Below, piece after piece: positions 12,200-63,566 of a DNA stretch of 64,000 nt (position 1 is its first letter; each line of letters starts with the position of its first letter). The position numbers and the translations under genes were made by a program. This DNA comes from Bryobacteraceae bacterium (GTDB lineage: Bacteria > Acidobacteriota > Terriglobia > Bryobacterales > Bryobacteraceae): positions 248,001-312,000 of the forward strand of contig JANWVO010000052.1 of the NCBI GenBank assembly GCA_025056865.1, in the 5' to 3' direction. Under the pieces are notes generated by a model. It did not search any database and had not been told where the DNA came from. It worked only from the letters and a program-made list of their open reading frames with translations.

Positions 12200-14323
<2,124 letters not shown>

Positions 14324-46777: not shown

Positions 46778-48253
46778 TCAATCGTGGCAGGAGGCTTGGA
46801 TTGCGTCTTGCAGGTACAGATCCCGGAACAAAGGGGCATGGCGATCAAACCATGAGGCAAGACTCTCCGCTATCCGCTCAAATGGCGGGTCCGAACTGGG
46901 CTGGAGCCCGGTAACGCGGGTGAGAAACTCCGGGCAGCGCAGAGCGCCATGCAGATACGTGCCTATGAGCCGTTCTAAACGCACGCCCTCGGTTCGCCCG
47001 TCCTCCAGCGTGAACAGAGGAGGCAGTTGTTCTAAGAGAATTGTCTGGCCCATGTGTATCTCGTAACCCTCCACCCTGACGCCCTCGATCGTAATTGCAG
47101 ACCTGCGGCAAACCTGTTTCTCCGGATTCATAACGGTCACAGCCGGAACCAGCGCCAACCCGTGCACGCATGCAGGACGACCGTCCAAGCCATGAGGATC
47201 CTCGATTCTCTCGCCGAGCATCTGGAACCCGCCACAAACTCCGATAACGCGAGCGCCGGCGGCATACTGGGCCAGAATCCATCGATCCAGATCTTGCTCA
47301 CGAAGCCAGACGAGGTCGGCTATTGTGCTTTTCGAGCCAGGTAGGATCACGATGTCAAATTGGTGGTCTACAGGTCTGTCGATCCACACTGCTTCGCTGA
47401 TCAGTTCGAAGTCTGTCGAGTTAGAGATCCGCGGGAGCCTAACGATCGCGCAGCGAGCCTCCGGCGGCACTGAACCGGAGGGAGGCGGAACAGACAGGCT
47501 GTCTTCGGCTTCCAGCCGAATGGAGCTGTCATACGGGAAGACCCCCAGGCAGGGCAGTCCGGTGGCCTGTTCCAGGAACGCTCTGCCCTCCTCGAACAGA
47601 GACGGATCGCCGCGGAACCGATTGATTGCGATGGAGCGGACCATGGCTCTGTCTGGCGGCTCGAGCAAGTGGAGGGTGCCGAGGATCGAAGCGAAAACTC
47701 CGCCGCGTTCGATGTCCGCCACGATCAGGGTGGGAGCCCCAACCCGGCGCGCGAATCCGAAGTTCACAAGGTCGTACCGCGTAAGGTTGACTTCTGCCAC
47801 ACTGCCTGCACCCTCTATGACGATGAAGTCGAACCGGGTGGCCAGCTCTGCCCAGGCGCGCAGGACCTCTTCGAGCAGGATGTCGTGGTATTGGTAATAC
47901 TCGCGAGCCCTGACCGTCTTCCAGACTTTCCCCCGCACGACAACCTGGCACAAGGATTCGCCAGAGGGTTTCAGCAGGATCGGATTCATCGCCGTTTCCG
48001 GCTCCAGGCCGCACGCCCATGCCTGAACGACCTGCGCCCGGCCGATTTCCCCGCCATCGATGCTTGGGTAAGAATTGTTCGACATATTCTGCGCCTTGAA
48101 TGGCGCTACACGGAACCCGTGGCGCCTCAGCCATGCGCAGATGGCGGTGCAGAACCAGCTTTTCCCGACGTGAGAGGCAGTACCGCCGACGAAGATGCTC
48201 CCCGCAGGGGGGCGAACAAATCGTGCCGCGGATGCCGCCGAAAGGCGTTTCAT
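46778..48253 (-). CDS. cobQ: Cobyric acid synthase
   Basis: A 491-residue glutamine-dependent amidotransferase that amidates adenosylcobyrinic acid a,c-diamide to adenosylcobyric acid. The N-terminal synthetase has a P-loop-like GGTASHVGKSWF and FKAQNMSNNSY. The C-terminal class I GATase-like domain has the nucleophile Cys340 in GVCGGFQMLGE and the HMGQT and YLHG segments. It is the last gene of the riboswitch operon and overlaps the chelatase gene by four bases. Upstream a,c-diamide synthase (CobB/CbiA) is not in the window. Confidence 0.94.
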   Translation of the reverse strand: MKRLSAASAARFVRPPAGSIFVGGTASHVGKSWFCTAICAWLRRHGFRVAPFKAQNMSNNSYPSIDGGEIGRAQVVQAWACGLEPETAMNPILLKPSGESLCQVVVRGKVWKTVRAREYYQYHDILLEEVLRAWAELATRFDFIVIEGAGSVAEVNLTRYDLVNFGFARRVGAPTLIVADIERGGVFASILGTLHLLEPPDRAMVRSIAINRFRGDPSLFEEGRAFLEQATGLPCLGVFPYDSSIRLEAEDSLSVPPPSGSVPPEARCAIVRLPRISNSTDFELISEAVWIDRPVDHQFDIVILPGSKSTIADLVWLREQDLDRWILAQYAAGARVIGVCGGFQMLGERIEDPHGLDGRPACVHGLALVPAVTVMNPEKQVCRRSAITIEGVRVEGYEIHMGQTILLEQLPPLFTLEDGRTEGVRLERLIGTYLHGALRCPEFLTRVTGLQPSSDPPFERIAESLASWFDRHAPLFRDLYLQDAIQASCHD

Positions 48254-49947
48254 GGACGGCGGGCTCCTGCGCTTCGATGCCCGGGTAAATGAAGAAGCTT
48301 TTCCGTGGAGCAGTCCTCCAGTCGGATCATGGTCCCCCGCAAGGCTTCGGCAAGTTCAGCCAGCCGGGGTTCGCCTTCGGAAGAGCAGTCGATAATGAGC
48401 GCTGGGCATTCGAGTTTCGAGGCTTCCTGGAGAGCCTCCTGCCAAGGATCTGCGCCATGCAGCGCGACGTTCGCCTGCCCGTCGGTGAACAGAATCAGGC
48501 ACAGCCCGTCCTGCGGATATGAGCTGGCCAGGTGGAGTGCATGTGCAAGCGGCGTGCGCCCGCCGCACGGCACATATTCCAGATGCTGGCGCGCGAGTTC
48601 GGCATCCCTGCATGGGGGCAGCAAAATCCGGGCTTCTCCGCCCCGAAACGTGATCACGCTGACCTCGCAACCCTGCTGCGAGGATTGTTGCAGCAGGCCG
48701 ATGGCGAGCCCCTTGGCGGCGCTGATTCTGCGGCGGGCCGCGAGAGAGCCGCTGCAGTCGAGAACAAACAGAAAACAGCGGGCCTCAGGACGCAGCCTGC
48801 TGCGCACGACCAGGTGGTCTGCGTCCAGCCGCGGACTTGCCGTTGCGGCCGTGGCCTTGCGGATGCTGGCAAAGATGTCCATGGGGCCTGTAGGAAGTGC
48901 AGCCGATGGTGCCGCGCCAGAGGCAGCCGCCGAGCCGCCGGCATCCCGGCTCGCCCTGCCATCTCCGCCGCCCGGGGCGCGCACCTGCGGTGCGGCAACA
49001 GGGTCTGGCAGGAACACGCGTTCCTCCGGATTGGAGCCGCCGCGCCCCTCATCGCCACGCGGGAGGGCAGGCGGTGGAGGAGACGGTCTTTGGCGTGAGG
49101 CGGCGATGCGCTGCCGATGCAACAGGATCAACGGCGCCACGCGCTCAACGTCCTCAGGCGTAGCCTCTTCCCGCTGCTCCAGCGCCGCCAGAGCTCGGGC
49201 AGCCCGATGCATGGCCAGGTCGGCGCGAAGAGAGAGAACGCCATTAGCGGCAGCCGTTGCGGCGATATGGCGCGCTACGGCTTCCGGCACCCGGATGTTC
49301 CCAAGCCGCCCGCGTGAGCTCTGAACTTTTTGACGAAGGGCCGCTTCACTGGGAGCGAATCGGCCGCAGAAAACCGTGGGGCTTCCATCAAACTCCTCCC
49401 GCATTTTGACGATTTGCATACGCAATTCCGGATCAACCGGCGCGTGCACTTCGGCGGACAGAGCAAAGCGATCCAGCAACTGAGGCCTAAGGGTGCCTTC
49501 TTCAGGGTTCATCGTCCCCAGAAGGACGAACTGCGCCTCCGTGAGCATCGAGAAGCCGTCCCTCTCCAGCCGGTAAGCGCCAGTGGCAAGGACGTCGAGC
49601 AGAGCGTCGGTCATCGGGGCTGGCAGCAGGTTGACTTCGTCAATGAACAGGACGCCCCCGTGCGCGCTCTGCACAAGGCCCGGCTTCAGGCGCGCCTGAC
49701 CCGAGAAGGCGGCTTCCAAGTCAATTCCTCCGAGCAGGCGCTCTTCGGTCACTCCGACCGGCACTTCAACGAACGGCGCCTTGCCGGGCAGCAATTGCGC
49801 GAGCGCACGCGCAGCGGTCGACTTTCCTGAGCCCTTCTCGCCAAATATCAGCACGCCGAGCCGCCAATCGACGGCTGCCAACAGAAGAGCCAGCTTGAGC
49901 GGCTCCATTCCGACCAAAGCGGGAAAAGGATAAACGGATTGGCTCAT
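48250..49947 (-). CDS. Cobaltochelatase AAA+/vWA subunit (ChlI-ChlD fusion type)
   Basis: A 565-residue ATPase partner for CobN. The AAA+ module has Walker A GEKGSGKST (36-44), Walker B VLFIDEVNLL (99-108) and MNPEEGTLRPQLLDRF; a Pro/Gly/Ala-rich linker (about 286-356) follows; then a von Willebrand A domain with MIDAS motif LDCSGS (396-401) and LFTDGQ. Unlike many ChlD proteins the Walker motifs are intact, so one protein can supply both the I and D roles. Magnesium chelatase is unlikely because no chlorophyll gene is present and cobN is adjacent (four-base overlap). Confidence 0.88.
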   Translation of the reverse strand: MSQSVYPFPALVGMEPLKLALLLAAVDWRLGVLIFGEKGSGKSTAARALAQLLPGKAPFVEVPVGVTEERLLGGIDLEAAFSGQARLKPGLVQSAHGGVLFIDEVNLLPAPMTDALLDVLATGAYRLERDGFSMLTEAQFVLLGTMNPEEGTLRPQLLDRFALSAEVHAPVDPELRMQIVKMREEFDGSPTVFCGRFAPSEAALRQKVQSSRGRLGNIRVPEAVARHIAATAAANGVLSLRADLAMHRAARALAALEQREEATPEDVERVAPLILLHRQRIAASRQRPSPPPPALPRGDEGRGGSNPEERVFLPDPVAAPQVRAPGGGDGRASRDAGGSAAASGAAPSAALPTGPMDIFASIRKATAATASPRLDADHLVVRSRLRPEARCFLFVLDCSGSLAARRRISAAKGLAIGLLQQSSQQGCEVSVITFRGGEARILLPPCRDAELARQHLEYVPCGGRTPLAHALHLASSYPQDGLCLILFTDGQANVALHGADPWQEALQEASKLECPALIIDCSSEGEPRLAELAEALRGTMIRLEDCSTEKLLHLPGHRSAGARRP

Positions 49948-52900
49948 GCGCGCCCCCCGGTTTCGCTGGCAGCCTCCACCGCCGTTTCAGCCTGCCGGGC
50001 TGCATCTTGCAGCGCCTCCAGAAGCGAGGGATCCGGCGTCTGCCACAGTCCCCGCTCGGCAGCCTCTTGCAGCCGCCTGACAATCGATTCGAGCGCCCAC
50101 GGATTGGAATGCAGAAGGAACGCCTGCATGCCTTCATCCAGGGCGTAACGCTGGGCCAAGCCGGTCCAGACAAAGTCGGGAATGATTTCGGCAGTGGCGT
50201 CGAATCCGAAAATGTAGTCGACCGTCGCGGCCAATTCCTGAGCGCCTTTGAATCCATGACGCTGCATGGCAGCGAGCCATTTCGGGTTGACAACCCGTGT
50301 CCGGTACACCCGCAAAACCTCTTCGCGAAGATCACGCACGCGAACCGCCTCCGGCCGGGATGTGTCCCCAAACCAGGCTTTCGGCTTTTTGCCGGTCAGC
50401 GAGCGGATGGATGCCACCAGTCCGCCGTGGAACTGGAAATAGTCGTCCGAATCAAAGATGTCATGCTCCCGGTTGTCCTGATTGTGCAATGCCACCTGCA
50501 CCGTGCCCAGGCGCTGTTCAAGGAGCTCGCGGGCCTCAACGCCCTCCATGTCCCGTCCGTAAGCGTATCCTCCCCACTGGATGTAGATCTCGGCCAGGTC
50601 AGCGGCGTCTGACCAGTTCCCCGTCTCGATGGCAGAGAGCAGGCCGCAGCCGTAGGAGCCCGGCTTCGAGCCGAAGATGCGCGCTCTAGCTTGGCGTTCG
50701 GCCTCTTCGGCCGGCAGGTCCCGGCATTGGTCCAGAAACTCGAGCCTGTGTTTACGGGGGAAGTTGGCTTCGGGAGGCTCTTCGAGCGACATGGCCAGCT
50801 CCACGGCTTCGTCGAGAAGCGCAACGAGATGGGGAAAAGCGTCGCGAAAGAAGCCGGAGATGCGCATGACCACGTCAATGCGCGGGCGGCCGAGCTCATC
50901 CAACGGAACCGGCTCCAGACGCTCGATGGAGCGGGAAACGGGATGCCAGACCGGCCGGATGCCCAGCAGAGCCAGCACCTGGGCGGCATCATCGCCCTGG
51001 GTGCGCATTTGGGAGGTGCCCCAGAGCGTGATCGCCACGGTTTCGGGCCACTGGCCCTCTTCATTCCTGTAGCGATCGGCGACCTGGGCAGCGAGTTGCT
51101 TGCCCACCTCCCAGGCGACTGGGGAGGGCAGATTGCGCGGATCCACGGCGTAGAAATTCCGGCCCGTTGGCAGAAGCCAAGCGGCTCCGCGCGTCGGGGC
51201 TCCGGACGGGCCCGGCGGAACGAAGCCTCCATCCAGGCCCAGGAGAAGATGCTCGACTTCGTCCGTGCATTTCTCCAGCGAAGGCGCGATCTGGTCGCAG
51301 ACACGACGCATCGCCTGTTGCAAGGAATCGCTTCCGCCGCAGGGCAGTTGCTCTAAAATCCGCGGAATGGCGGACGGCGAGAAACCCTCGCGTTCAAGCG
51401 CTTCCAACAATTCCACCGATTTTTGTTCCGCCGCCTCCAACAGGTCGGCGTGGCTGAAGCACCGACGGCCGAAGAGAGAAACTTGCGCAGGCAGCCGCGT
51501 GCCCGGCTGGCGGCCCAGCTCAGCGTAGTCGTAGCCATGCATGCGGAGCAGCGAGCCGGGCAGGCTGGGAACCGGCCCGTTCGGCAGACGGGTCAGCGAA
51601 AGCAGCATCTCGGGCAGCGGAGGCATCTGACCGAGAATGTGCAGCCCGTCGCGGATCTGGGCCAGGCCCAGCTCGCAGAGATAGCCGTCCAGGTCCTGGA
51701 TCAGATGCGAAACTTCCATGCCGCTCATGCCCGCCAGCGTGGCGGGCACTCCATCTTCGGTCAACTGCTCGTCCCATTCATGCTTGTGGTCGCCGTGATC
51801 CTGCCGGAGGCGGGCCCGAAGGTCCAGATCCTGATCGAGTTCCGTTTGACGGATCAACTCCCAGATCCTTTTCTGGATGGCCGGAAGCTTGGCCGGATCG
51901 ATTGCCTCCAGCGCATAGTATTCGTTGACGAGCTGATTCAGTTCCGCCAGCGGGCCGTAGGTCTCCGCCCGTGTCATCGGCGGGGTCATGTGGTCCACAA
52001 TGACGGCGTGCGCGCGGCGCTTGGCCTGGCAACCCTCGCCCGGGTCATTGATGATGAATGGGTAGAAAAGCGGCAGCGAACCGAGCGCCAGCTCCGGAAA
52101 GCATCGCGAAGAGAGTCCGACCCCCTTGCCGGGAAGCCATTCCAGGGTTCCGTGCTTGCCGAGCTGAATGGCGGCGCAGGCGCCGAACCCGCCCTGTTCT
52201 GGGGGAGCTTCCAACCAGCGGTAGAACGCCAAGTAATGATGCGTTGGCGGCAGATCCGGCGTGTGGTAAATGGCGTCGGGATCGAGATTGTAGCCGCGCG
52301 GTGGTTGCAATGCCACGAGCACGTTGCCCAACTGAACTGCCGAGAACAAGTAGCTGCCGCCGCAGCGGTAGGGGCAATTGGGCTCCTCAAGCGGCGGACC
52401 CCATTGTTTTTCAATCCGCTGTCTCACGTTTTCGGGCAGTTTGCAGTACCAGTTCTGGTAGGCGGCTCCCGCCAGGCGGAACGGAGTCAGCTCGTCGAGC
52501 GGATGGGTCGCGTCATATGAGCCCCGCGCCAATACGAAGTGCATCAGTTCCACGGGATCTTCCGGCCACGGCTCGACCTGATACCCGCGGCTGCGCAGTG
52601 CGGCGAGAATGACAGCAAGGCTCGCGGGAGTGTCCAGACCGACCGCCTCGCCAGCCTTGACGGTCCGTGCCGACGAGCAATTGAGGATGATCGCAATGCG
52701 CTTCTGGTCGGCGGGCAGCGTTCGCAGCCGGACCATGGCTGCCGCCAGGGAGGCAACCTGCGAGCAACGGTCCTCGACAGGCTGATAAATCGGCGCCGGG
52801 ATCTCGGGGGACCGCTCCTTGAAAGAAATCGGCACGGTCGTGATGCGGCCGTCAAGCTCCGGCAGCGCCACGTGGATGGCGGTTTCCAGCGGCGAGAGGC

Positions 52901-54212
52901 CTGTTTTGGAGAGAGACCAGATCGATTCCGGCATGCTGGCCGGAATCGCCTGCAGCACGGGCGCTCCCAGTTCTTCGAACACAGATGGGAGGTCTGGCCG
53001 ATGCACGGCGCCGCGGTTGTGAGCGAAAGCCAGCGTGGAAATGATGATCTCCGCGCGGCCGGCGAGAAGCTCAAGCGCCGGGGGCAGTGTTTCCCGCGGT
53101 CCCGTCAAGCTTGACGTGTAGATGCAAAGCGGCGTAAAACCTTCCAGCTCGAGCGCCTCCGAGAGGGCGTCGATGAAGAAAGTGTTCCCGCTGAGCAGGT
53201 GTGCGCGGTAGAAGAGCACGGCGGCAGCCGGGCGCCCTGGAGTGGTCCTCTGCAGCCAGTCCTCAAGCGTGGGGTTTTCGACATCCGGCAAATAGATGCC
53301 CGTGTCGGGCGTGGCGACGGGGGGCAGCGCTCCAAATGCCGTGCCGAGCAGTTCATCCGAGCAAAGCTTGAACGCCTCTGCCACGTTCCCAGGTCCGCCG
53401 GCCAGAAGATAGGCGGAGAGCCTGTGCAACAGGGCTGCCGGCACGGTAGAATCGCGTTCCAGCCGTGCGTCGGGATCGCCCGGACCGCTCAGCAAAAGCA
53501 AATGACAGCGCCCGCGGCGCGCCTGTTCCTGCAGTCGATCCCAGCCGGGAATGCGCTCGGGCGCCCCGTGGAGCCGGGCAACGATTGCGGCGGCGCGCCC
53601 TGCCGGCCCCGCCAGCAGCGATTCCATGACGCGGTCCTCACGGATGGCTCCGAGCGAAAACCCATGGACTTCCAGGCCCGGCGGCAGCAGGCTGCGGGCG
53701 CGCTCGAGCGCCAGAAGATCGGTATCGGCATGCGTGAAAAAGGCGATCAGGGGTGATTCCGCAGGCCCGGTCTCCGCTGGCTCCGGTTCCGGATGCGGCC
53801 GTGCTTCCCAGTCGTAATACTGAAACAGGAAGGGAGCAAGGTCCGGAGGCGGCGGCAACACGCGGTCGGCGGCGAGCATTTGCTCGACGTAATCGAACAG
53901 CGATCTCACCTGCCATTCCGCAGCAAAAGAGTGGAACCAGAAGGAACGCCCGCCAAAGAGTAGGCAGACGACATTGGCCAGCGGGCAGGGACCGAGGCAT
54001 CCGGCTTTCGTCAGGTGCACGACGTTCCGCATCCTGCGCCGGAGCCATTCCTGCTTGTAGAGTTCGGCCGGAACGGCAGGGAAGCCGCGGTCCACCCTCC
54101 CGCAACAGCAGCCGTAGTGGCAGAACAGGATGTGGGCGCGCTTCTGGACCAGTTGAATCATGCGGCCGTCGCTGCGCGCCACCCTCTGGCGATACGGGCT
54201 CGTGTAGCTCAA
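49944..54212 (-). CDS. cobN: Cobaltochelatase CobN with N-terminal ferredoxin-like domain
   Basis: A 1422-residue protein. Residues 27-115 form a thioredoxin-like [2Fe-2S] domain with Cys31/35/36/37 and Cys72/76 (LTKAGCLGPCPLANVVC), similar to CbiW-type ferredoxins found in cobalamin operons. The rest is the CobN/BchH subunit that inserts Co2+ into hydrogenobyrinic acid diamide: ALQPPRGYNLDPDAIY, AAIQLGKHGTLEWLPGKG and WGTSQMRTQGDDAAQVLALL. The start is TTG at 54212 with GGAGG five bases before it, overlapping the permease stop (TTGA); an ATG at 54161 lacks such a site. The fused domain may carry electrons or hold iron-sulfur for metal reduction. Confidence 0.9.
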   Translation of the reverse strand: MSYTSPYRQRVARSDGRMIQLVQKRAHILFCHYGCCCGRVDRGFPAVPAELYKQEWLRRRMRNVVHLTKAGCLGPCPLANVVCLLFGGRSFWFHSFAAEWQVRSLFDYVEQMLAADRVLPPPPDLAPFLFQYYDWEARPHPEPEPAETGPAESPLIAFFTHADTDLLALERARSLLPPGLEVHGFSLGAIREDRVMESLLAGPAGRAAAIVARLHGAPERIPGWDRLQEQARRGRCHLLLLSGPGDPDARLERDSTVPAALLHRLSAYLLAGGPGNVAEAFKLCSDELLGTAFGALPPVATPDTGIYLPDVENPTLEDWLQRTTPGRPAAAVLFYRAHLLSGNTFFIDALSEALELEGFTPLCIYTSSLTGPRETLPPALELLAGRAEIIISTLAFAHNRGAVHRPDLPSVFEELGAPVLQAIPASMPESIWSLSKTGLSPLETAIHVALPELDGRITTVPISFKERSPEIPAPIYQPVEDRCSQVASLAAAMVRLRTLPADQKRIAIILNCSSARTVKAGEAVGLDTPASLAVILAALRSRGYQVEPWPEDPVELMHFVLARGSYDATHPLDELTPFRLAGAAYQNWYCKLPENVRQRIEKQWGPPLEEPNCPYRCGGSYLFSAVQLGNVLVALQPPRGYNLDPDAIYHTPDLPPTHHYLAFYRWLEAPPEQGGFGACAAIQLGKHGTLEWLPGKGVGLSSRCFPELALGSLPLFYPFIINDPGEGCQAKRRAHAVIVDHMTPPMTRAETYGPLAELNQLVNEYYALEAIDPAKLPAIQKRIWELIRQTELDQDLDLRARLRQDHGDHKHEWDEQLTEDGVPATLAGMSGMEVSHLIQDLDGYLCELGLAQIRDGLHILGQMPPLPEMLLSLTRLPNGPVPSLPGSLLRMHGYDYAELGRQPGTRLPAQVSLFGRRCFSHADLLEAAEQKSVELLEALEREGFSPSAIPRILEQLPCGGSDSLQQAMRRVCDQIAPSLEKCTDEVEHLLLGLDGGFVPPGPSGAPTRGAAWLLPTGRNFYAVDPRNLPSPVAWEVGKQLAAQVADRYRNEEGQWPETVAITLWGTSQMRTQGDDAAQVLALLGIRPVWHPVSRSIERLEPVPLDELGRPRIDVVMRISGFFRDAFPHLVALLDEAVELAMSLEEPPEANFPRKHRLEFLDQCRDLPAEEAERQARARIFGSKPGSYGCGLLSAIETGNWSDAADLAEIYIQWGGYAYGRDMEGVEARELLEQRLGTVQVALHNQDNREHDIFDSDDYFQFHGGLVASIRSLTGKKPKAWFGDTSRPEAVRVRDLREEVLRVYRTRVVNPKWLAAMQRHGFKGAQELAATVDYIFGFDATAEIIPDFVWTGLAQRYALDEGMQAFLLHSNPWALESIVRRLQEAAERGLWQTPDPSLLEALQDAARQAETAVEAASETGGRA

Positions 54213-55953: not shown

Positions 55954-56792
55954 CGCTTCCCTCTGTGGATCGCTTCCGAGATCCTGGCCAACGCCTGCGG
56001 CACCCGAGGGCCGGGCCGCACGAACAGCTCGTCCGAGAAAACAACGATTCTCCCTTCCCTCACTGCTTTGAGATCGGCGCGCTCCAGCCATGGGCGGAGC
56101 GCCGCCTGGCGATGGCGCTCCTCATCGCCATCTGCCGTCATCGTGCCGGAAGCATCGAGAATCAGATCCGGATTCCATGAAACCACCATTTCCAGCGAGA
56201 TGCGCGGATATCGGGGCCCTCCCGCCGGAATCAGATTTTCTGCGCCAGCGGCTTCGGCCAGCTCGCCCAGCCAGGACGCGGGGCCGGCGGCGATCAGTCC
56301 GCCGAGGGTTCCTGGCTGACGGGCGACGAGGATCAAGGTTTTCGGCCTCTGAGCCGGCGCCGACTGGCGGGCCGCTTCCAGTTGAGCGCGTATTTGTGCG
56401 ACAAGGCGGAGCGCGTTTTCACTGCGGCCTGTGGCCGCGCCGATCCGCGCAATCGATTCCATCACCTCGTGGAGCGAGTTCATTTCCACAACCAGCGACG
56501 GGAGCCGCATGGCCGCGAGCCGGTTGGCCAGGTCGCCCCGCTTTCCGTACAGGATCACCAGGTCGGGCCTCAACGCCGCGATTTTTTCCGGATCGGGCCT
56601 GCTGTAGGAGCCGATTTTCGGCAGTCGCCGGACCTGCTCCGGGAAATCGCAGTAGCTGGTGACGCCGACGACACTTCCACCGGCCCCGATGGCAAACAGG
56701 ATCTCGGTGATGCCTGGGGACGTGGAGATAATCCGCGAGGGCTGGCCGAAGCCAGCCCCCGCGCACAGAAACACCAGCAACAGGCGGCGCAT
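55950..56792 (-). CDS. BtuF-type cobalamin-binding protein (second set)
   Basis: A 280-residue periplasmic class III binding protein. A signal peptide (MRRLLLVFLCAGAGFG) precedes the TroA/BtuF fold with RIISTSPGITEILFAIGAG, VGVTSYCDFPEQ, KIGSYSRPDPEKIAALRPDL and ARQPGTLGGLIAAGPASWLG. The YCDFP motif is characteristic of BtuF-like corrinoid-binding proteins. It starts seven bases after the TonB receptor gene ends. Confidence 0.88.
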   Translation of the reverse strand: MRRLLLVFLCAGAGFGQPSRIISTSPGITEILFAIGAGGSVVGVTSYCDFPEQVRRLPKIGSYSRPDPEKIAALRPDLVILYGKRGDLANRLAAMRLPSLVVEMNSLHEVMESIARIGAATGRSENALRLVAQIRAQLEAARQSAPAQRPKTLILVARQPGTLGGLIAAGPASWLGELAEAAGAENLIPAGGPRYPRISLEMVVSWNPDLILDASGTMTADGDEERHRQAALRPWLERADLKAVREGRIVVFSDELFVRPGPRVPQALARISEAIHRGKR

Positions 56793-56799
56793 CGCCAGT

Positions 56800-59241
56800 T
56801 CAATTGCCGAGTTGTATTCCCGCGACCACATAGAGGCCAGGCGCCTGCCAGGCATTCTGATAGTAGGTCCGGTTGAGCGCATTCTCGATGCGCGTGAACA
56901 GCCGGGCGAACCGCTTCTCGGATTCCCAGATTCGGAATCCTGCAGTAAGATCTACCTTCGTGAAACCGGGGAAGCGGAACGCCCGAGAGCGGTTTACCGC
57001 GAAGTAGGAATTGAAGTGCTCGCCCTGCCGGTAGAGATCCAGATTGGTGTCCAGCCGCCGGCCCCAGCGTTTCAGGACGACCACCGAGCCGTAGTGGCGG
57101 GGCACCTGGAGAACACGCCAGAAGCCGCGCACCGTGATGTCGCGATCGAGATTCGCGTTGGTGTAAGTGTATGACCCCGTCAAAGTGAAGCTGCGGGCCG
57201 GCCGGACCTCGAAGCCAAACTCCGCTCCGCGGCTGATGCCTCCGCTGCCGTTGATATAGCCCATCGTGCGCAGGTAAGGATCCGTTTCCGGACGGATGGC
57301 GCCGCTGGAATCAAAGGCCGTGATGGATACGACGCGGATGTAGTACCAGGTGGCCGAGAGCCGCAGCCGGCTATTCCAGAAGTATTGATCGACGCCTGCG
57401 TCGACCGAATTATACCGGTCGGGCAGAAGCAGCGGGTCGCCATAGGGCGTGAACTGCACTACTCCTGTCACAGGATTGGCGCTGAAGCCGCCGCCGAAGC
57501 GCTCATAGAGCGAGGGAGCGCGATAGCTGTTGCCGCCGTGGACCCGCAGTTTCGTTCTCAGGCTGGGGATCAGGTAGGCCAGCGACAGGTCCCCTGTCAG
57601 CGCTTTCGGAGGAGCATCGATGGCCACGCGGTCATAGTTGTTGGCCGTTCCGCTCAATTGAAAACGGGGCCGGTCCAATTCGAACAACTGCCCTCTGCCG
57701 GAGGCATTGATGAGCAGACGGCGCTTCAAGAGCGCGGCCTGCGACGCAAAATACACCGCGGATGATCTTTGCGTGATTCTCGTCTGAGTGGCCACGCGGC
57801 GAGTGCCCGCAAGATTATTGTCCTGCCGGTCGAAATAGCGCTCCTGTTCCCACTCAAAGCCGCCCGAAAACTGCAACCATTGCAGTGGGACTGCATTGAC
57901 TCGCCCATCCGCCGTGTCAATGTCGCCCACGTAGTTGCCGTAGTTGACCGCTGCCGGCTGGCTTCCAATGCCGGCTGGTCCGTTTTCGAAAACTCGGGAA
58001 GTGTGCACGCGCTGGTAGCTCGCCTGGAAGTTCATCCGGGGGCCGGCCAAGTGGCGCAGGATCAGCGCAGTCGAAGAGAAGCGCGACGAGCGGCGGTTGT
58101 CCGGGTCATCGCGCCCTGGAAGCACTGTGATGCCGGCCAGATTCGGCGCCCCCCCCGCCAACAGCAACCGGACCTGATCCGGAGGCAGAATGCGGGCCGG
58201 GATGACGCCGTCGGCGGGGAAGTTCGCCGCCGGCAAGCCGGTCGTGCCCGGGCTGATGTTGAGCTGAACAAAATCATCCGACGCCCAGAGCCTGCCGCTG
58301 AGGCTCGTGCGGGAGCCGAGATCGGCACGGGCAAAAAACTGGCCGCCCGTGCTTCGATTGGCGTCGTTGCCGTCCACGCCCCGCGTGACGTTGAGATGGA
58401 GAAGGTTGGCTGAATAACGGAGCTGATTCTTGAGCAGGCCTCCTTCGAAGCCGCCGCGGCCCCGGAGGAAACCCAGGCCTCCGCCCTCGACAGACAGGTT
58501 CCCGCGCATCGGGGAACCCCCTTCGCTGGTGATGACATTGATGGCGCCGCCCACGGCGTTGGTCCCATAAAGAGAAGAGGCCGAGCCCCGCAAAAGCTCC
58601 ACACGTTCAGCGCCTACGAGATTCAGGGTTGAGACAAAAGAGGAGGCATCCCCCTGCGTGGTGGAAGCGTCGCGGAAACGGAGACCATCCACCAGCACTG
58701 CGGCCGCGTCAGGACGGACTCCACGGATGCGGATGGTTGTAAACTGCCCTGGCCCGCCGCCATTGTTCACAAGAACGCCGGGAAGGGGGCGAATCGCCTC
58801 GGCCAGAGAAAACTCGTCCCGAAGGTCCATTTCTTCCTTTGTCAGCAGGCTCGTCGCTTTGGCTATTTCGTCCGTCGTCTGCGGAGTGGCCGTAGCGGTC
58901 ACCATGACAGTCTGGCTCACACCCGCCACCTCCAGCCGCAGCTCGAGCTGGGCAGTCCGGCCAGCCTCCAGATTTAGAACTTCAACGCGGTCTCGGAACC
59001 CCTCAGCCGAAACCTCCAGATAGACGGTGCCTGCCGGAATCTGTTCGAACCGAAACCGCCCGCCGGAGTCGGCGGCAGTGCGGAAATCGCCGGTCGCGCC
59101 AAGTCGCGCAATACGAAGGCGGGCCCCAGCGATGGCGCGGCCTTGCGGATCCTGCACGGAACCAGTGACGCTGGCGGCCTGCTGCGCCTGGAGGCACGGG
59201 GTCAGGGCCAAGAGCAATAACAGGAAATGTGATTGTCTCAC
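56800..59241 (-). CDS. TonB-dependent outer-membrane receptor (BtuB-like) with CarboxypepD_reg domain
   Basis: An 813-residue outer-membrane transporter. A signal peptide (residues 1-20) is followed by a CarboxypepD_reg beta domain (ASVTGSVQDPQGRAIAGARL), a TonB box-like VMVTATATP, a plug (RIRGVRPDAAAVLVDGLRF, AERVELLRGSASSLYGTNAV) and a 22-strand-type barrel ending in an aromatic C-terminus region. Position inside a riboswitch-controlled cobalamin operon indicates corrinoid uptake. The start is GTG at 59241 with AGGAGG seven bases upstream, overlapping the ATPase stop by four bases. Confidence 0.9.
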   Translation of the reverse strand: MRQSHFLLLLLALTPCLQAQQAASVTGSVQDPQGRAIAGARLRIARLGATGDFRTAADSGGRFRFEQIPAGTVYLEVSAEGFRDRVEVLNLEAGRTAQLELRLEVAGVSQTVMVTATATPQTTDEIAKATSLLTKEEMDLRDEFSLAEAIRPLPGVLVNNGGGPGQFTTIRIRGVRPDAAAVLVDGLRFRDASTTQGDASSFVSTLNLVGAERVELLRGSASSLYGTNAVGGAINVITSEGGSPMRGNLSVEGGGLGFLRGRGGFEGGLLKNQLRYSANLLHLNVTRGVDGNDANRSTGGQFFARADLGSRTSLSGRLWASDDFVQLNISPGTTGLPAANFPADGVIPARILPPDQVRLLLAGGAPNLAGITVLPGRDDPDNRRSSRFSSTALILRHLAGPRMNFQASYQRVHTSRVFENGPAGIGSQPAAVNYGNYVGDIDTADGRVNAVPLQWLQFSGGFEWEQERYFDRQDNNLAGTRRVATQTRITQRSSAVYFASQAALLKRRLLINASGRGQLFELDRPRFQLSGTANNYDRVAIDAPPKALTGDLSLAYLIPSLRTKLRVHGGNSYRAPSLYERFGGGFSANPVTGVVQFTPYGDPLLLPDRYNSVDAGVDQYFWNSRLRLSATWYYIRVVSITAFDSSGAIRPETDPYLRTMGYINGSGGISRGAEFGFEVRPARSFTLTGSYTYTNANLDRDITVRGFWRVLQVPRHYGSVVVLKRWGRRLDTNLDLYRQGEHFNSYFAVNRSRAFRFPGFTKVDLTAGFRIWESEKRFARLFTRIENALNRTYYQNAWQAPGLYVVAGIQLGN

Positions 59242-60029
59242 AAAAATTCCTCCTCGAGCGAATGAAAAACCACATAGGGGGTACCGGAAGGCGAGCGGCC
59301 GGTCTCGGCGCGAACGCGGAACACTGGTCCCAGCAGGTCTGAAGCGACGGCTCGCTCGGCCGGGCCGTCGTGAACGCAACGGCCGCGGTCCAGCAGGACC
59401 AATCTGTCGCCATACCGGAGGGCGGCGCCTAAATCATGCGTCGCCACGACAACGCCGTGGCCCTCCGCGACCAGCCTGCGAACGAGCATGAAAATGCCGA
59501 GGCCGTGCCGCACGTCCAGACTTGCCGTAGGCTCATCCAGAAGCAGGAATTCGGGTTCGGCGGCGAGACCTCTGGCAATGGCGACGCGCTGCCTTTCGCC
59601 GCTCGACAAAGTGTTGACGAGCCGCCCAGTCAGATCCTTCAGGTCGCACAGGGCTTGGCTTCGCTCGACGGCCGCTATGTCGCGGGCGGAAGGCGGCGAC
59701 CACCGCGAGCGATGGGCGTAGCAACCCATCGAGACGGCTTCCTTGACAGTGATGGCGTAATCGAAGCGCGTTTCCTGGGGAACGAGCACGATCTTGCGGG
59801 CCAGCTCCCGGCGCGACATGCGGGATAAATCCTTGCCGTCAAAGCGCACCTGGCCCCTGTCGGGCCGCCACAAAGCGCACAAGACGCGCAGCAGCGTGCT
59901 CTTGCCGCTGCCGTTCGGGCCGACCAGCATATGGACGGCGCCCGGCTGGATCGTCAGGTTGATTTCCGACAGAATCTCGCGGCCGTTGCGCCGCAACGTC
60001 AGCCGGATTGCCTCGATCCCCCTGTTCAC
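59238..60029 (-). CDS. BtuD-type ABC transporter ATPase (first set)
   Basis: A 263-residue ATPase of the FecE family: Walker A GPNGSGKST, signature LSSGERQRVAIARGL, Walker B FLLLDEPTASLD, and ATHDLGAALRYGD with the switch His. The start is GTG at 60029, overlapping the permease stop by four bases, with a GGGAGG site close by. It is related to but distinct from the ATPase at 55186. Confidence 0.9.
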   Translation of the reverse strand: MNRGIEAIRLTLRRNGREILSEINLTIQPGAVHMLVGPNGSGKSTLLRVLCALWRPDRGQVRFDGKDLSRMSRRELARKIVLVPQETRFDYAITVKEAVSMGCYAHRSRWSPPSARDIAAVERSQALCDLKDLTGRLVNTLSSGERQRVAIARGLAAEPEFLLLDEPTASLDVRHGLGIFMLVRRLVAEGHGVVVATHDLGAALRYGDRLVLLDRGRCVHDGPAERAVASDLLGPVFRVRAETGRSPSGTPYVVFHSLEEEFL

Positions 60030-61075
60030 AGGCCTCCCTCCCGGCTGCGCCGCATGAGCAGCCACAGGAACAACGGCCCCCCAATCAGGGCCGTGACCAC
60101 GCCCAGACGGATTTCTACCGGAGGATGAATGGAGCGCGCTGCAAGGTCGCAGGCGAGCAGCAGGATCGCGCCCGCCAGAGCACTGGCTGGCAGCAGGATT
60201 CGGTGCAACGGGCCCAGCAGCAGCCGGGTTGCATGGGGCGCTACCAGCCCCACGAAACCGATCACTCCAGCCACCGCCACCGCCGACCCGGTCATCACCG
60301 CCGCTGCGCCGATGAGCAGGCGCTTCATGGCTTCCACCTCGACGCCCAACGAGGCTGCCACCTCCTCTCCCTGCTGCATCAGGTCGAGTTCAGTGGCGCA
60401 GAAACGGGCGACCACGAATCCGGCAGCCGCGAAAGGCAGGCTGAGCCAGACGTGGGTCCATGTGCGCGCCTCCAATCCGCCCATCGTCCAGAACACGATC
60501 TCGTGCGCGATCTGCCAGTTGTTGATCTGAAGCGAGAGGATCAGCCCCGCCGCCGCCGAGAGCAGCGAACTGACTGCGACGCCGGCCAGCAGAAGCGTCA
60601 TCATGGGCGTCACGCCTCCGCGCGTCGCCATGGCGTACACGGTGAGAAGGGCTCCCAGGGCTCCGATCATGCCAGCCGCCGGAAGCGCCACCGGATGCGC
60701 CGCGCTCCACCCGAGGGAGAAGGCCATCACCGCGCCCAGCACGGCGCCGGCGCTTGTTCCGGTCAGTCCCGGTTCCGCCAGCGGATTGCGGAACAGCGCC
60801 TGCAAAACGGCGCCTGCCACTGCCAGGGCAGCTCCCACGATGGCGCCTACGACCGCGCGCGGAACACGCAAGTTCCAAACGACGACGAAGTGCGCTTCCT
60901 TCAGCCCAGCGGCATCGATCACACCCTGCGGCAGCAGCTTGGCCGCGAGCACGCGAAGGACGGTTCCCGGCGCCATCCCGGCAGGTCCCGTCAGGACGGC
61001 CGCAACCATCAGCAGCGCCATGACGATCGGAGCTGCAGTGAAAAACACGATGCGTTTAACCGGCCGGCCGTCCAT
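60026..61075 (-). CDS. BtuC-type ABC transporter permease (first set)
   Basis: A 349-residue FecCD-family permease: NLRVPRAVVGAIVGAALAVA, LFRNPLAEPGLTGTSAGAV and VAGVIGFVGLVAPHATRLLL are the usual landmarks. About ten helices are predicted. ATG at 61075 was chosen; the gene overlaps the binding-protein gene by 20 bases, and the stop overlaps the ATPase start. It forms the first of two uptake systems in the operon. Confidence 0.9.
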   Translation of the reverse strand: MDGRPVKRIVFFTAAPIVMALLMVAAVLTGPAGMAPGTVLRVLAAKLLPQGVIDAAGLKEAHFVVVWNLRVPRAVVGAIVGAALAVAGAVLQALFRNPLAEPGLTGTSAGAVLGAVMAFSLGWSAAHPVALPAAGMIGALGALLTVYAMATRGGVTPMMTLLLAGVAVSSLLSAAAGLILSLQINNWQIAHEIVFWTMGGLEARTWTHVWLSLPFAAAGFVVARFCATELDLMQQGEEVAASLGVEVEAMKRLLIGAAAVMTGSAVAVAGVIGFVGLVAPHATRLLLGPLHRILLPASALAGAILLLACDLAARSIHPPVEIRLGVVTALIGGPLFLWLLMRRSREGGL

Positions 61076-62051
61076 ACAAACCCTCGCCAAGAACCTCAAT
61101 GAAAACGCGCACAAACGGAGACATTGAGAGGAATATCCGGTTTTCGAAGACGAGAATTCGCCCGCCGCGGGCTGCGCTGGTGGCGCCAATAGCCGGGTCC
61201 GAAAGGAGCGTCGCGGCGCGGTCTTTGAGCTTTCCCGGATCGGCGCCGCATACCAGCCAGTCCGGGTCCCAGATCAATATCTGCTCCGGCGTCACCGGGT
61301 CATAGCCTTTGAGGCCGCCTTCCGCAGCCACGTTTACTGCGCCGACAGTGGCGAGAATATCGTGAAACAGCGTCTCGCTGCCGTAACTGTAGCGACCGCC
61401 CAGGCCCAGCACCCGGGGAGCCGCGGCGCGGCTCGGCTTTCTTGCCCGGGCGCGGAGAATTGTTGCGCGCAAGAGCGCTGCTTCGCGCCGGGCCTCGGCA
61501 TCGTGCCCCGTCAGATGCCCGACAAGCTCAATGCCCCGCTCCACGTCGCCCAGCGTTTTGAACATGGTGAACATGCGGAAAATCGGCGTTCCTGTGCTTC
61601 GCACGGCTGCCGTGTAATCGGCTCTGGCGGAGCTGGAAACGAAAATCAAGTCGGGTGCGGCCATCAAGACGCGCTCGGGATCTGTGGCCACCACCGGCTG
61701 GAAGCGGCGAACCAGCGGCAGCACGTTGCTGATCCGCTCCTGCCAGGCGCTCTCGCTCACCCCGACCACTTTCTCGGGCGGAACGATCGAGTAGACATAT
61801 TCGTCGATCGACCAATACTGAGACACGACGCGCCGTACTGGCTGGGCCACCCTCACAACAAGTCCGTCCGCGTCGGTCGACAGGCGCGCGTCCCTGGTGC
61901 GGTCGAGCCGGTAAAGCGGCGGCTCCGTGTAGGCTCGCGTGGTCACCGCGACGGACAGCCCTGTGCGCTGAACCCCCAGAGACGCGAGCCCGGCTAACGC
62001 GGCCACGGAAGCCGCGAGCGCTGCCAAAGAACGCCAGAGGCGCCATTTCAT
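61056..62051 (-). CDS. Periplasmic/anchored ABC substrate-binding protein (first set)
   Basis: A 331-residue TroA-fold binding protein with an uncleaved or signal-type N-terminal helix (LAALAASVAALAGLASLG). Segments include YSIVPPEKVVGVSESAWQER, AAPDLIFVSSSARADY, GHLTGHDAEARREAALL and LGLGGRYSYGSETLFHD. The YCDFP motif of the second set is absent here, so this one may bind a different corrinoid or a metal-chelate complex. It overlaps the unknown gene upstream by four bases. Confidence 0.83.
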   Translation of the reverse strand: MKWRLWRSLAALAASVAALAGLASLGVQRTGLSVAVTTRAYTEPPLYRLDRTRDARLSTDADGLVVRVAQPVRRVVSQYWSIDEYVYSIVPPEKVVGVSESAWQERISNVLPLVRRFQPVVATDPERVLMAAPDLIFVSSSARADYTAAVRSTGTPIFRMFTMFKTLGDVERGIELVGHLTGHDAEARREAALLRATILRARARKPSRAAAPRVLGLGGRYSYGSETLFHDILATVGAVNVAAEGGLKGYDPVTPEQILIWDPDWLVCGADPGKLKDRAATLLSDPAIGATSAARGGRILVFENRIFLSMSPFVRVFIEVLGEGLYGRPAG

Positions 62052-62629
62052 TGCGGCCCCCGAGCCTGCAGTTCCGCCCATGGCGCTTCGGCTGCCTCGC
62101 GGAAGTCCCCCGGCATGGGCTCGTTCAGATAACGGCTGCGAAGGTCGTAATAAAGCCTCAGCCGGCTCCAGTCGGGTTGCTGCATGAGGCGCATTTCGTC
62201 AGACAGGTACGGATTGGGGAGAAAAATCGTGATCATTTGTTGGTCGAATCCATTCCAGAAACGCAGTCCCCAACTGCGGCCGCCCGCACACCCCCCGCCC
62301 CGTGTTTCAAAGAACGCCGCGCGCCGGATCGGCCGATTTTTCCGGAGCTCTTCACTCCGGCTTCCAAGATGCGGGCCGACACACAGGTGGAAATGCCATA
62401 CGCCGAAATCCACGGTCAGATAACCGTCGAGAAATCGCAGTTCCGGCTGCTTGTCACAGCGGATTTCAAAAACGGCGCCTTCCATTACCGGGCCGAAAAC
62501 GATGTGCCGCCAATGGATGGAGAAAATCTCCTCCAGCAGAGCCCGCAGCCTTTCTGGCGGAAGCCGGAATTCGCAATACCGGGTGGCGCTGCCATCCGGG
62601 CGCGATTCAACCCACCCGTTGGCGCTCAT
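62048..62629 (-). CDS. Conserved unknown protein of the cobalamin operon
   Basis: A 193-residue soluble protein without signal or membrane segments. It is rich in aromatics and His, for example HWRHIVFGPVMEGAVFEIRC, LTVDFGVWHFHLCVGPH and RSWGLRFWNGFDQQMITIF. The HFHLCVG and CGG-type segments could bind a metal, but no known motif is evident. Its location between an adenosyltransferase and two corrinoid uptake sets suggests a role in corrinoid handling. ATG at 62629 was chosen because of a GGGAAG site; ATGs at 62641 and 62656 are in frame. Confidence 0.65.
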   Translation of the reverse strand: MSANGWVESRPDGSATRYCEFRLPPERLRALLEEIFSIHWRHIVFGPVMEGAVFEIRCDKQPELRFLDGYLTVDFGVWHFHLCVGPHLGSRSEELRKNRPIRRAAFFETRGGGCAGGRSWGLRFWNGFDQQMITIFLPNPYLSDEMRLMQQPDWSRLRLYYDLRSRYLNEPMPGDFREAAEAPWAELQARGPQ

Positions 62630-62649
62630 ATCACTTCCCATCTCGCGCG

Positions 62650-63228
62650 TCACCATGCGCGGGACCATCGCGGCCCGGAAACCTGATTCAGCTCGCGCAG
62701 CGAGCTGTTTATGCCCGCCTCGGTTTCCAGCTTTCGTGCCAGCAGCCACAGCAGATCCGACAATCGGTTCACATACGCCAGAATGGTCTCCTGCACGGGC
62801 TCTCCGGAATCGCGAAGACGGACAATTTCCCGCTCGGCTCTGCGGCAGATCGTCCGGGCCAGATCGAGCGCCGCAGCCGCCGGGTGCCCTCCGGGTATCG
62901 CCCAGTCGGCAAGAACGCCGTCCACGCCCTCGATTTCGTGCACTTGCCGGGTAAGGCCGTCCACCATATCGGGAGTGATCGGAATTTGGGGCTTGCGGCT
63001 TTCCGGCGGGGTCGCTAGCGCCGATCCGACCCGGAACAGCTCCTGCTGGATCGCCCGCAACTGGCTCCGGACGGACTCGCCTTGGCAAAGTGCGCGCGCT
63101 AGGCCGATTGCCGAGTTCAGCTCGTCGATGGTGCCGTAACTTTCGACCCTTTGATGGCTTTTGGGGACGCGGATGCCCCCGGCTAGCGAAGTTTCACCGC
63201 CGTCGCCGCGCTTGGTTGCGATGCTCAC
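62650..63228 (-). CDS. PduO-type cob(I)alamin adenosyltransferase
   Basis: A 192-residue enzyme that transfers the adenosyl group of ATP to cob(I)alamin, making the coenzyme of methylmalonyl-CoA mutase. Family motifs are TKRGDGGETSLAGG (ATP loop), VESYGTIDELNSAIGLAR, ICRRAEREIVRL and YVNRLSDLLWLLAR. The start is GTG at 63228. It is the first gene after the cobalamin riboswitch. Confidence 0.94.
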   Translation of the reverse strand: MSIATKRGDGGETSLAGGIRVPKSHQRVESYGTIDELNSAIGLARALCQGESVRSQLRAIQQELFRVGSALATPPESRKPQIPITPDMVDGLTRQVHEIEGVDGVLADWAIPGGHPAAAALDLARTICRRAEREIVRLRDSGEPVQETILAYVNRLSDLLWLLARKLETEAGINSSLRELNQVSGPRWSRAW

Positions 63229-63348
63229 GGAATTCTGCCTCCTTCTTCGGGCAGACTTTCCGCGTGGACTCTGGAGGCGGTGCCAATAAGGCGAGCAGTA
63301 GGTGCTCCTGCATCCTTCCTGTGCTCCGCAGAAAGTCAGCCAACTTGC
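63229..63348 (-). promoter_or_regulatory. Riboswitch expression platform / leader
   Basis: The 120 bases between the riboswitch core and the first GTG contain GCAGGAGCACCTACTGCTC (63312-63294), which can fold into a small hairpin, and a AGGAGGCAGAATTCC ribosome site just before the start. Occlusion of this site would give translational control, but folding has not been computed. Confidence 0.4.
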
Positions 63349-63536
63349 CTCAGGTAGGTCTCCTGGCTCGAAGGCTGCAGCGGCCGAAGGCGGCTGCAGG
63401 CCCGTCCCCCTTCCCCGGCCCCTTCAGGCCGAGTGGTCATGGGACGAACCAACCTCTCTCACAGTGGCGGGACCGCGCCGGATTTTCACCGGACTTCCCT
63501 GTTATGACCCGAGTGGGTTCACCTGAGGACAGGTTG
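63349..63536 (-). ncRNA. Cobalamin riboswitch
   Basis: Read on the minus strand, the region has the conserved core in order: GGGAAGTCCGGTGAAAATCC (ending at 63481), the GCGGTCCCGCCACTGTGA box (about 63480-63460), a variable GC-rich peripheral hairpin, and the 3' box GAGCCAGGAGACCTACCTGA (about 63369-63350). These are the B12-box landmarks of adenosylcobalamin riboswitches. It lies about 120 bases before the adenosyltransferase start and would repress the whole uptake and assembly operon when cobalamin is plentiful. Confidence 0.93.
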
Positions 63537-63566
63537 AGTATAGCACGAACCGGATCAGGGCGACAA
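63537..63566 (-). promoter_or_regulatory. Candidate promoter of the cobalamin operon
   Basis: On the minus strand TTGTCG (63566-63561) and TATACT (63542-63537) are separated by 18 bases. Transcription would start about 7 bases downstream, exactly at the 5' edge of the riboswitch. It overlaps the end of the upstream CbiB gene. Confidence 0.5.

Follow-up and report, generated by a model that had tools for sequence, protein, structure and literature searches.

Why would a bacterium whose genome appears to lack the genes for building a corrin ring keep a cobaltochelatase behind a vitamin B12 riboswitch, and what does the uncharacterised protein encoded in the same operon do? We considered this question for a 64,000-nucleotide stretch of a Bryobacteraceae bacterium genome (the window, C52:248001-312000; genome of 4.18 Mb in 61 contigs, listed as 100% complete), in which a cobalamin riboswitch heads twelve genes running from a PduO-type corrinoid adenosyltransferase, through DUF7676, two importers and a TonB-dependent receptor, to the cobaltochelatase CobN, its ChlI/D-type motor (ChlID) and CobQ (Table 1). 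The interest of the locus lies in a B12-operon protein with the predicted fold of heme carriers and in a maintained cobaltochelatase whose substrate the organism appears not to make; the functions of both are inferred. We favor, with a probability of about 0.57, a corrinoid-scavenging operon in which DUF7676 serves as a corrinoid carrier and CobN-ChlID-CobQ finish imported corrinoids.

The DUF7676 gene, second in the operon after the adenosyltransferase gene, has no NCBIfam name, and nothing on its function was found in print; the family name was absent from the literature searched, mostly papers outside subscription. The family is rare in its phylum (8 of 297 Acidobacteriota genomes sampled, 7 above the cut-off), and a scan of 84,980 species genomes yielded 316 relatives. 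The best 80 of these 316 formed the locus set; the search alignment included B12-linked members, and the 80 loci are not independent, since Methylocystis, Rokubacteria and others recur and many are cut by contig ends. A covariance model built from eleven riboswitches placed a riboswitch upstream on the same strand at 54 of the 80 loci, upstream in antisense at one, and downstream on the same strand at two and in antisense at seven. Among loci with more than 8 kb of upstream sequence, 42 of 49 had one. Two matches (L101 and L106, 36.1 and 32.3 bits) lie under the Rfam threshold, and the counts without them are 52/80 and 41/49; 52/80 is also the count at 50 bits or more. Re-testing with Rfam confirmed nine of eleven model matches (L074, L075, L076, L078, L077, L097, L110, L115 and L127) and found no riboswitch in nine re-tested loci without a model match (L087, L099 and seven long-upstream loci).

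The neighborhoods of DUF7676 point the same way. A TonB or BtuFCD label was found on the same strand within 8 kb at 65 of the 80 loci. Each label was the best blastp match among reference proteins taken from the window, from annotated records and from E. coli K-12, a procedure that dropped overlapping weaker labels such as DUF7676 of L075 and BtuC2 of L074, both seen in other searches. By Pfam, the upstream neighbors included TonB receptor barrels (21/63) and TonB C-terminal domains (16/63), and the downstream neighbors periplasmic binding proteins (17 of 54 scanned, out of 60 found). Fourteen plasmid records also carried a DUF7676 relative, and six of the eight plasmid loci read had an Rfam cobalamin riboswitch (Azospirillum, Diaphorobacter, Methylocella, Paracoccus, Rhodococcus and Trichormus), with none at the Streptomyces and Gloeocapsopsis loci. 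A Zur or zincophore role, prompted by one cyanobacterial plasmid, was dropped in view of these six riboswitches. Collectively, the DUF7676 family is tied to B12 by its riboswitches and its TonB/BtuFCD neighborhoods. Separately, in Methylococcaceae and relatives (L077, L079, L080, L084 and L085) an open reading frame (ORF) of about 190-205 amino acids stands immediately before DUF7676.

Two AlphaFold models were made: the window protein was modeled together with 77 relatives, and a Terasakiella protein with 37 that were for the most part shared with the first set. Their predicted local distance difference test scores were 92.7 and 93.6 and their predicted template modeling scores 0.89 and 0.88. 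Both matched a single fold group comprising ChuX, HutX, HemS, PhuS, ChuS, 3fm2 (putative heme-binding), 2hqv, 2ph0 and 3na2, the titles of the last three naming no function. This group filled the top 15 and 14 rows (Z 10.4-5.2 and 10.7-6.0), led by matches at Z 10.4 (root-mean-square deviation 3.2, 130 aligned) and Z 10.7 (3.4, 131 aligned), with the first unrelated rows at 3.0 and 3.2; Foldseek agreed on a ChuX/HutX/HemS-type fold for both. The window protein is a single domain whose N-terminus, judged by eye, has no hydrophobic stretch. Sequence comparison gave weak matches of 33 among 78 members to the Pfam family LFE_1968-like (best 1.6e-4), of which we take 3na2, a Leptospirillum protein, to be a representative, guessing from the names; a profile search against PDB sequences gave two chance-level matches only. 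From the predicted fold and the gene neighborhoods, we propose for DUF7676 the role of a corrinoid carrier in the cytoplasm, doing for B12 what HutX does for heme.

The alternative that survives best, although we consider it unlikely, is that DUF7676 acts on corrinoids as an enzyme, for instance by removing the upper ligand or by reduction. The residues invariant across 78 sequences include E55, Y70, T72, H79, H81, C83 and N126, and the cyanobacterial protein (L020) is fused to a 2Fe-2S thioredoxin-like stretch (22.3 bits, just below the Pfam cut-off of 24.8), with seven full-length plasmid copies. ChuS, a protein of this fold, bears the title heme oxygenase, but the same list holds proteins titled heme-binding or heme chaperone, and an enzyme assignment has neither a solved DUF7676 structure nor a known substrate to build on.

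We then asked what the rest of the genome offers CobN. Of the tetrapyrrole-methylase family, a search of the whole genome found only RsmI, which methylates rRNA, and the siroheme uroporphyrinogen-III methyltransferase, and hence no corrin-ring methyltransferase. Genome-wide searches likewise found no CbiC, none of CobU, CobS and CobT, and no clear CobB: the sole strong CobB/CobQ-type amidotransferase domain was that of CobQ itself (148.2 bits), and two further GATase_3 matches (33.5 and 29.8 bits) were weak and partial and were left untyped. The middle of the pathway is present, in the form of CobN-ChlID, the adenosyltransferase, CobQ, CbiB and CbiZ. Because the ring-building genes are absent, the operon is, at the sensitivity of these searches, a scavenging operon rather than the tail of a home-made pathway. 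The earlier note on this DNA had seen a late synthesis step here; CobQ is indeed present, but it does not end a pathway of the organism's own, both ends of which are absent from the genome. A genome search for the missing cob/cbi genes, which that note had suggested as a check, thus returned no ring or loop genes at its sensitivity, and CbiZ and CbiB upstream. Without ring synthesis, the substrate of CobN must be imported or be a compound as yet unknown.

Shelton et al. (2018, PMC6461909) recognise four classes of genome (producers, tetrapyrrole-precursor salvagers, cobinamide salvagers and non-producers) and mention two genomes with pathways that do not fit simple auxotrophy. The nucleotide-loop assembly genes that define their cobinamide salvagers were not found in our genome, nor was the hydrogenobyrinate-making context expected around CobN. 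Without the defining genes of the first three classes, the genome would probably fall among the non-producers, where a module such as CobN-ChlID-CobQ is not provided for.

A less probable explanation is that the missing genes went unseen, through an assembly gap or unrelated loop enzymes, making the organism an ordinary salvager of cobinamide or cobyrinate. The division of the genome into 61 contigs leaves room for this, as does the metagenome-assembled genome (MAG) of locus L078, which has cobT-cobS-cobU on a separate contig and only two tetrapyrrole methylases, both untyped. However, an assembly listed as complete would have had to lose CobU, CobS and CobT together; CobS was not found in the genomes of L074, L075 and L076 either (three of four MAGs searched, completeness not given), and such a salvager has no evident need for CobN.

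CobN exceeds its equivalog cut-off, and the BchH model stays under its own, by which a Mg-chelatase was ruled out. Against the PDB, its top match was 7c6o at 991.5 bits, with HmuS at 293.5; 7c6o is Mycobacterium tuberculosis CobN (PMC12583661). In a 34-row tree, in which the L074 and L078 rows are less than half filled, the window copy fell within a well-supported clade of 16, with Granulicella tundricola, same-class genomes that have CbiC, and Deinococcus, apart from the HmuS-like group; an HmuS-type de-chelatase was ruled out for the operon's CobN on this position and the bit scores. The window protein keeps 288 of 305 columns invariant in the CobN of eight ring-makers, among them Sinorhizobium, taken to be a ring-maker, the stretch read showing cobU, cobW, cobN and cobO only. 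Two Luteitalea copies keep 301/305 and 296/300, and the genome's other CobN-like protein 161/300. The Walker A and metal-ion-dependent adhesion site (MIDAS) motifs of the ChlI/D partner are intact. Compared with L074 over 687 codons, CobN shows 0.21 nonsynonymous (dN) and 1.86 synonymous (dS) substitutions per site, a dN/dS of about 0.11 that is rough with dS close to saturation; the adenosyltransferase is similarly constrained (0.20 and 1.67). CobN thus looks genuine and maintained under purifying selection, and metal insertion would be its expected activity.

The gene neighborhood is also conserved. The series riboswitch, adenosyltransferase, DUF7676, importer, TonB receptor, second importer and CobN recurs in two Bryobacteraceae MAGs (L074 and L078), where both loci stop inside cobN and L074 has cbiZ-cbiB upstream. 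Two Luteitalea MAGs (L075 and L076) have the riboswitch, TonB receptor, importer, adenosyltransferase, DUF7676, second importer, CobN, ChlID and CobQ. Each of the four MAGs has two or three untyped tetrapyrrole methylases. Across the Acidobacteriota sample of 297 genomes, 25 have PF02514 (the CobN/Mg-chelatase H family), HmuS-like proteins and probable phototroph chelatases included, and 6 have CbiC. Literature searches, with subscription papers mostly outside their reach, brought up no CobN module in organisms without ring synthesis. As separate observations, a Spirosoma oryzicola plasmid (L014:12997-31550) carries a CobB-CobN-ChlID-CobQ-CbiB-BluB-CobU-CobO-BtuDCF island that has three cobalamin riboswitches and, as far as it was read, lacks annotated ring genes, and Rokubacteria (L097, L114 and L124) carry CobU-CobT-BtuFCD-TonB-CbiZ-DUF7676-CobQ-CbiB islands with two riboswitch matches each, another CobQ in a salvage setting.

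It is doubtful that CobN-ChlID instead takes the metal out of imported corrinoids or another tetrapyrrole, or swaps it. HmuS, a CobN relative encoded in a heme-acquisition operon, is a heme de-chelatase (PMC12583661) and gives this idea a precedent, and here a CobN stands in an uptake operon without a ring pathway, beside an importer with weak heme and iron matches. Yet the protein is CobN-type and above the CobN cut-off, its ATP-driven ChlI/D partner is typical of metal insertion, and it is the genome's other CobN-like protein that resembles HmuS. That second protein (432.6 bits to HmuS and 417.8 to CobN in the PDB) lies about 2.3-8.5 kb past the right end of the window, divergent from cbiZ, where a TonB receptor precedes it (L026:10672-16868, plus strand); the pair may form a heme or corrinoid de-chelatase system. 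Least probable is the view that this is a plain B12 uptake operon, with CobN-ChlID-CobQ and cbiZ-cbiB surviving from an aerobic pathway since lost: absent ring and nucleotide-loop genes, a CobN inside the ring-makers' clade and 17 altered invariants of 305 (6 polar) would suit it, but we reject it on the purifying selection and retained invariants of CobN, together with intact frames throughout, intact Walker A and MIDAS motifs, the better-conserved Luteitalea copies and a neighborhood shared by MAGs of two Acidobacteriota families.

The mechanism that we favor for the scavenging operon would run as follows. Low cellular B12 would open the operon through the riboswitch; in the predicted fold of the putative expression platform, a hairpin holds the Shine-Dalgarno sequence and GTG start of the adenosyltransferase gene, consistent with translational control. 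The TonB receptor and the two BtuFCD-type importers, recognised by family, would carry corrinoids to the cytoplasm. None of the six transporter proteins reached a curated Btu equivalog cut-off in NCBIfam, although all have the family domains (PF01497, PF01032 and PF00005), and their BtuF, BtuC and BtuD names, like the presumed corrinoid substrate, follow family and context. Heme uptake as the main function of the operon was rejected in view of the riboswitch and the corrinoid genes, despite the second importer's weak heme and iron matches. DUF7676 would then take the corrinoid in the cytoplasm and pass it to the adenosyltransferase of the adjoining gene, perhaps with accompanying reduction of the cobalt. 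Natural metal-free corrinoids exist; CobN-ChlID would insert cobalt into such an imported corrin, CobQ would amidate side chains of the imported corrinoid, CbiZ and CbiB would take off and re-attach the aminopropanol arm, and the finished cofactor would go to methylmalonyl-CoA mutase. The more specific, joint claim, that DUF7676 is a family of corrinoid chaperones between BtuCD and the adenosyltransferase and that this lineage imports cobalt-free corrin and inserts the cobalt with CobN-ChlID, is a tentative one.

Several observations weigh against this reading. The gravest follows from the order of the cobalamin pathway, in which adenosylcobinamide phosphate should be as far as a reworked corrinoid gets without CobU, CobS and CobT, so that known enzymes could not finish it. 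Two ways out can be envisaged: other enzymes finish the corrinoid, or cofactor is formed from complete cobamides alone and CobN-ChlID-CobQ have a different use. The import of cobalt-free corrins is itself a conjecture. Six of 108 polar or charged ring-maker invariants are altered in the window CobN (K370T, H683Q, R1095S, D1144E, Y1280W and Y1321F), which could reflect changed specificity, and ChlID-CobQ is visible in just two of the four MAGs with the CobN neighborhood (L075 and L076). For the second importer, the top NCBIfam matches, all under their cut-offs, are to models for heme or iron (IsdE, a heme ATPase and FhuB). As for DUF7676, identity in the heme-chaperone rows is 8-17%, and a shared fold proves no function; none of 78 members matched the ChuX_HutX or HemS Pfam families in a scan at E up to 10 with ten families listed; and the heme oxygenase title of ChuS means that DUF7676 could be an enzyme. 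Seven of the 49 long-upstream loci lack a riboswitch (eight without the weak L101 match), and 15 of the 80 loci lack a same-strand TonB/BtuFCD label. DUF7676 stands without labelled TonB or BtuFCD neighbors in L086 (Chloracidobacterium, with no Rfam riboswitch at the locus), L029 and L030, the latter two probably also Chloracidobacterium genomes. On a Gloeocapsopsis dulcis plasmid (L022:4869-17339), the fused DUF7676-FeS gene lies in a block without a cobalamin riboswitch, beside thrS, two GTP-binding proteins, folE, hisI and cysS, which looks like a zinc-starvation island.

Regarding the operon itself, the earlier note had counted overlaps of 4-20 bases at nine of eleven junctions and gaps, of 7 and 20 bases, at the remaining two; this count was confirmed. 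With the best-supported starts, the junctions are, 5' to 3', a gap of 20, overlaps of 4, 20, 4 and 4, a gap of 7, and overlaps of 4, 16 (or 4), 4, 4 and 4; an alternative DUF7676 start at 62653 or 62656 would turn the first gap into an overlap of 4 or 7. All but 27 of the 16,451 bases are covered by frames, and GC content at third codon positions exceeds overall GC in all twelve. Tight packing with overlaps is usual in operons, and a single transcript of the twelve genes with translational coupling is plausible from this layout. The description of one tight riboswitch-headed block of uptake, adenosylation, cobaltochelatase and CobQ genes held, as did that of a B12 consumer nearby, the mutase at 12.2 kb. 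The proposed extent stood as far as the twelve genes to cobQ, but the corrinoid block begins before the riboswitch, with cbiZ-cbiB. New to the description are DUF7676, the cbiB end with cbiZ upstream, and another complete ABC importer, its genes arranged F-D-C.

The end of cbiB lies 13 bases ahead of the aptamer, and cbiZ overlaps the cbiB start by 16 bases. Counting these two, the block would comprise at least fourteen genes; that they share a transcript is a conjecture. A promoter-like site at the cbiB end is weak and near chance level, three sites of its pattern being found against 1.7 expected. Elsewhere in the genome, a second cobalamin riboswitch (contig C6, L027:9962-10186, minus strand, 88.8 bits) precedes a TonB-receptor-like ORF (L027:7515-10175), and thus two TonB receptors of the genome may respond to B12. 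The methylmalonyl-CoA mutase, followed by MeaB, is the likely consumer of the cofactor that the operon would supply; directly 5' of it lies a short mutase-like ORF (10838-12193, plus strand, 249.9 bits), possibly the small subunit.

Table 1 Features of the corrinoid locus and its likely consumer, in window numbering.
Feature	Position	Strand	Evidence
cbiZ, upstream of cbiB	64526-65707	-	PF01955, 171.2 bits
cbiB, 3' part in window	63555-64000, gene on to ~64541 beyond window	-	genome contig
Promoter-like TTGTCG-N18-TATACT, TG preceding second hexamer	63566-63537, at cbiB end	-	pattern match
Cobalamin riboswitch aptamer RF00174	63541-63336	-	103.9 bits, gathering score 31.5
Putative expression platform, hairpin with Shine-Dalgarno and GTG start of first gene	63335-63220	-	predicted fold
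PduO-type corrinoid adenosyltransferase	63228-62650	-	PF01923, 186.1 bits; TIGR00636 above cut-off
DUF7676 protein	62629-62048	-	PF24724, 187.2 bits, gathering cut-off 27; predicted ChuX/HutX/HemS-like fold
BtuF1, periplasmic binding protein (context name)	62051-61056	-	PF01497
BtuC1, FecCD-type permease	61075-60026	-	PF01032; top NCBIfam match BtuC PRK09535, 269.9 bits, below cut-off 461
BtuD1, ABC ATPase (context name)	60029-59238	-	PF00005
TonB-dependent receptor, BtuB-like, with carboxypeptidase-regulatory domain	59241-56800	-	PF07715, PF13620; top NCBIfam match TIGR01779 B12 receptor, 107.3 bits, below cut-off 599.7
BtuF2, periplasmic binding protein (context name)	56792-55950	-	PF01497; top NCBIfam match heme-binding IsdE, below cut-off
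BtuD2, ABC ATPase (context name)	55953-55186	-	PF00005; top NCBIfam match heme ATPase, below cut-off
BtuC2, FecCD-type permease (context name)	55201-54209	-	PF01032; top NCBIfam match FhuB, below cut-off
CobN, cobaltochelatase large subunit, TTG start	54212-49944	-	TIGR02257, 1111.9 bits, cut-off 822.05
ChlI/D-type chelatase motor	49947-48250	-	AAA+ with Walker A; VWA with MIDAS motif
CobQ, cobyric acid synthase	48253-46778	-	NF001989, 518.3 bits, cut-off 273; TIGR00313, 422.4, cut-off 309.9
Methylmalonyl-CoA mutase with B12-binding domain	12200-14323	+	801.6 bits
MeaB	14389-15423	+	follows mutase

To our knowledge, the handling of imported B12 in bacteria between BtuCD and the first enzyme has been little described. 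Heme uptake operons have studied cytoplasmic carriers, and the heme chaperones HutX, ChuX, HemS and PhuS resemble DUF7676 in predicted fold, in an N-terminus without a hydrophobic stretch and in their TonB-ABC uptake operons. They differ in that DUF7676 operons carry B12 riboswitches and corrinoid genes, and DUF7676 has no ChuX_HutX or HemS match at the sequence level. The nearest studied B12 system is the alr4027-btuB2-alr4030-btuFCD operon of Anabaena sp. PCC 7120, which lies behind a cobalamin riboswitch and is induced by cobalt starvation, with btuB2 and btuD serving cyanocobalamin uptake and alr4030 described merely as ferredoxin-like (PMC10878165). It shares with our operon the cobalamin riboswitch, TonB receptor and BtuFCD, with the ferredoxin-like gene in the DUF7676 position, but the available text names no adenosyltransferase, second importer, CobN, ChlI/D or CobQ. 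A Trichormus plasmid (L020) has the Anabaena gene order, with DUF7676 fused to the 2Fe-2S-like stretch in the place of alr4030; because of this shared layout, rather than from its own sequence, alr4030 is very probably a DUF7676-ferredoxin fusion. With a widespread uncharacterised protein of carrier fold in B12-riboswitch operons, the question of B12 hand-over thus becomes testable, for example in Anabaena PCC 7120.

For the chelatase, the CobN-ChlI/D pair of Deinococcus deserti plasmid 2 (L013) shares the CobN clade, a CobN above the cut-off and an adjacent ChlI/D; its CobN stands amid ring genes, whereas ring genes were not found in the Bryobacteraceae genome. That CobN-ChlID-CobQ are maintained without ring synthesis cautions against reading B12 production from the presence of CobN or CobQ, and suggests that unfinished, possibly cobalt-free, corrins are traded as a resource. 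Cobinamide salvagers and CbiZ remodelers (PMC6461909; PMC7733943) share with our genome corrinoid uptake, the adenosyltransferase, CbiZ, CbiB and the absence of ring synthesis, but our genome differs in lacking CobU, CobS and CobT and in having CobN-ChlID-CobQ. If the proposed use of imported corrins is true, such organisms would form an extra class beside producers, precursor salvagers, cobinamide salvagers and non-producers.

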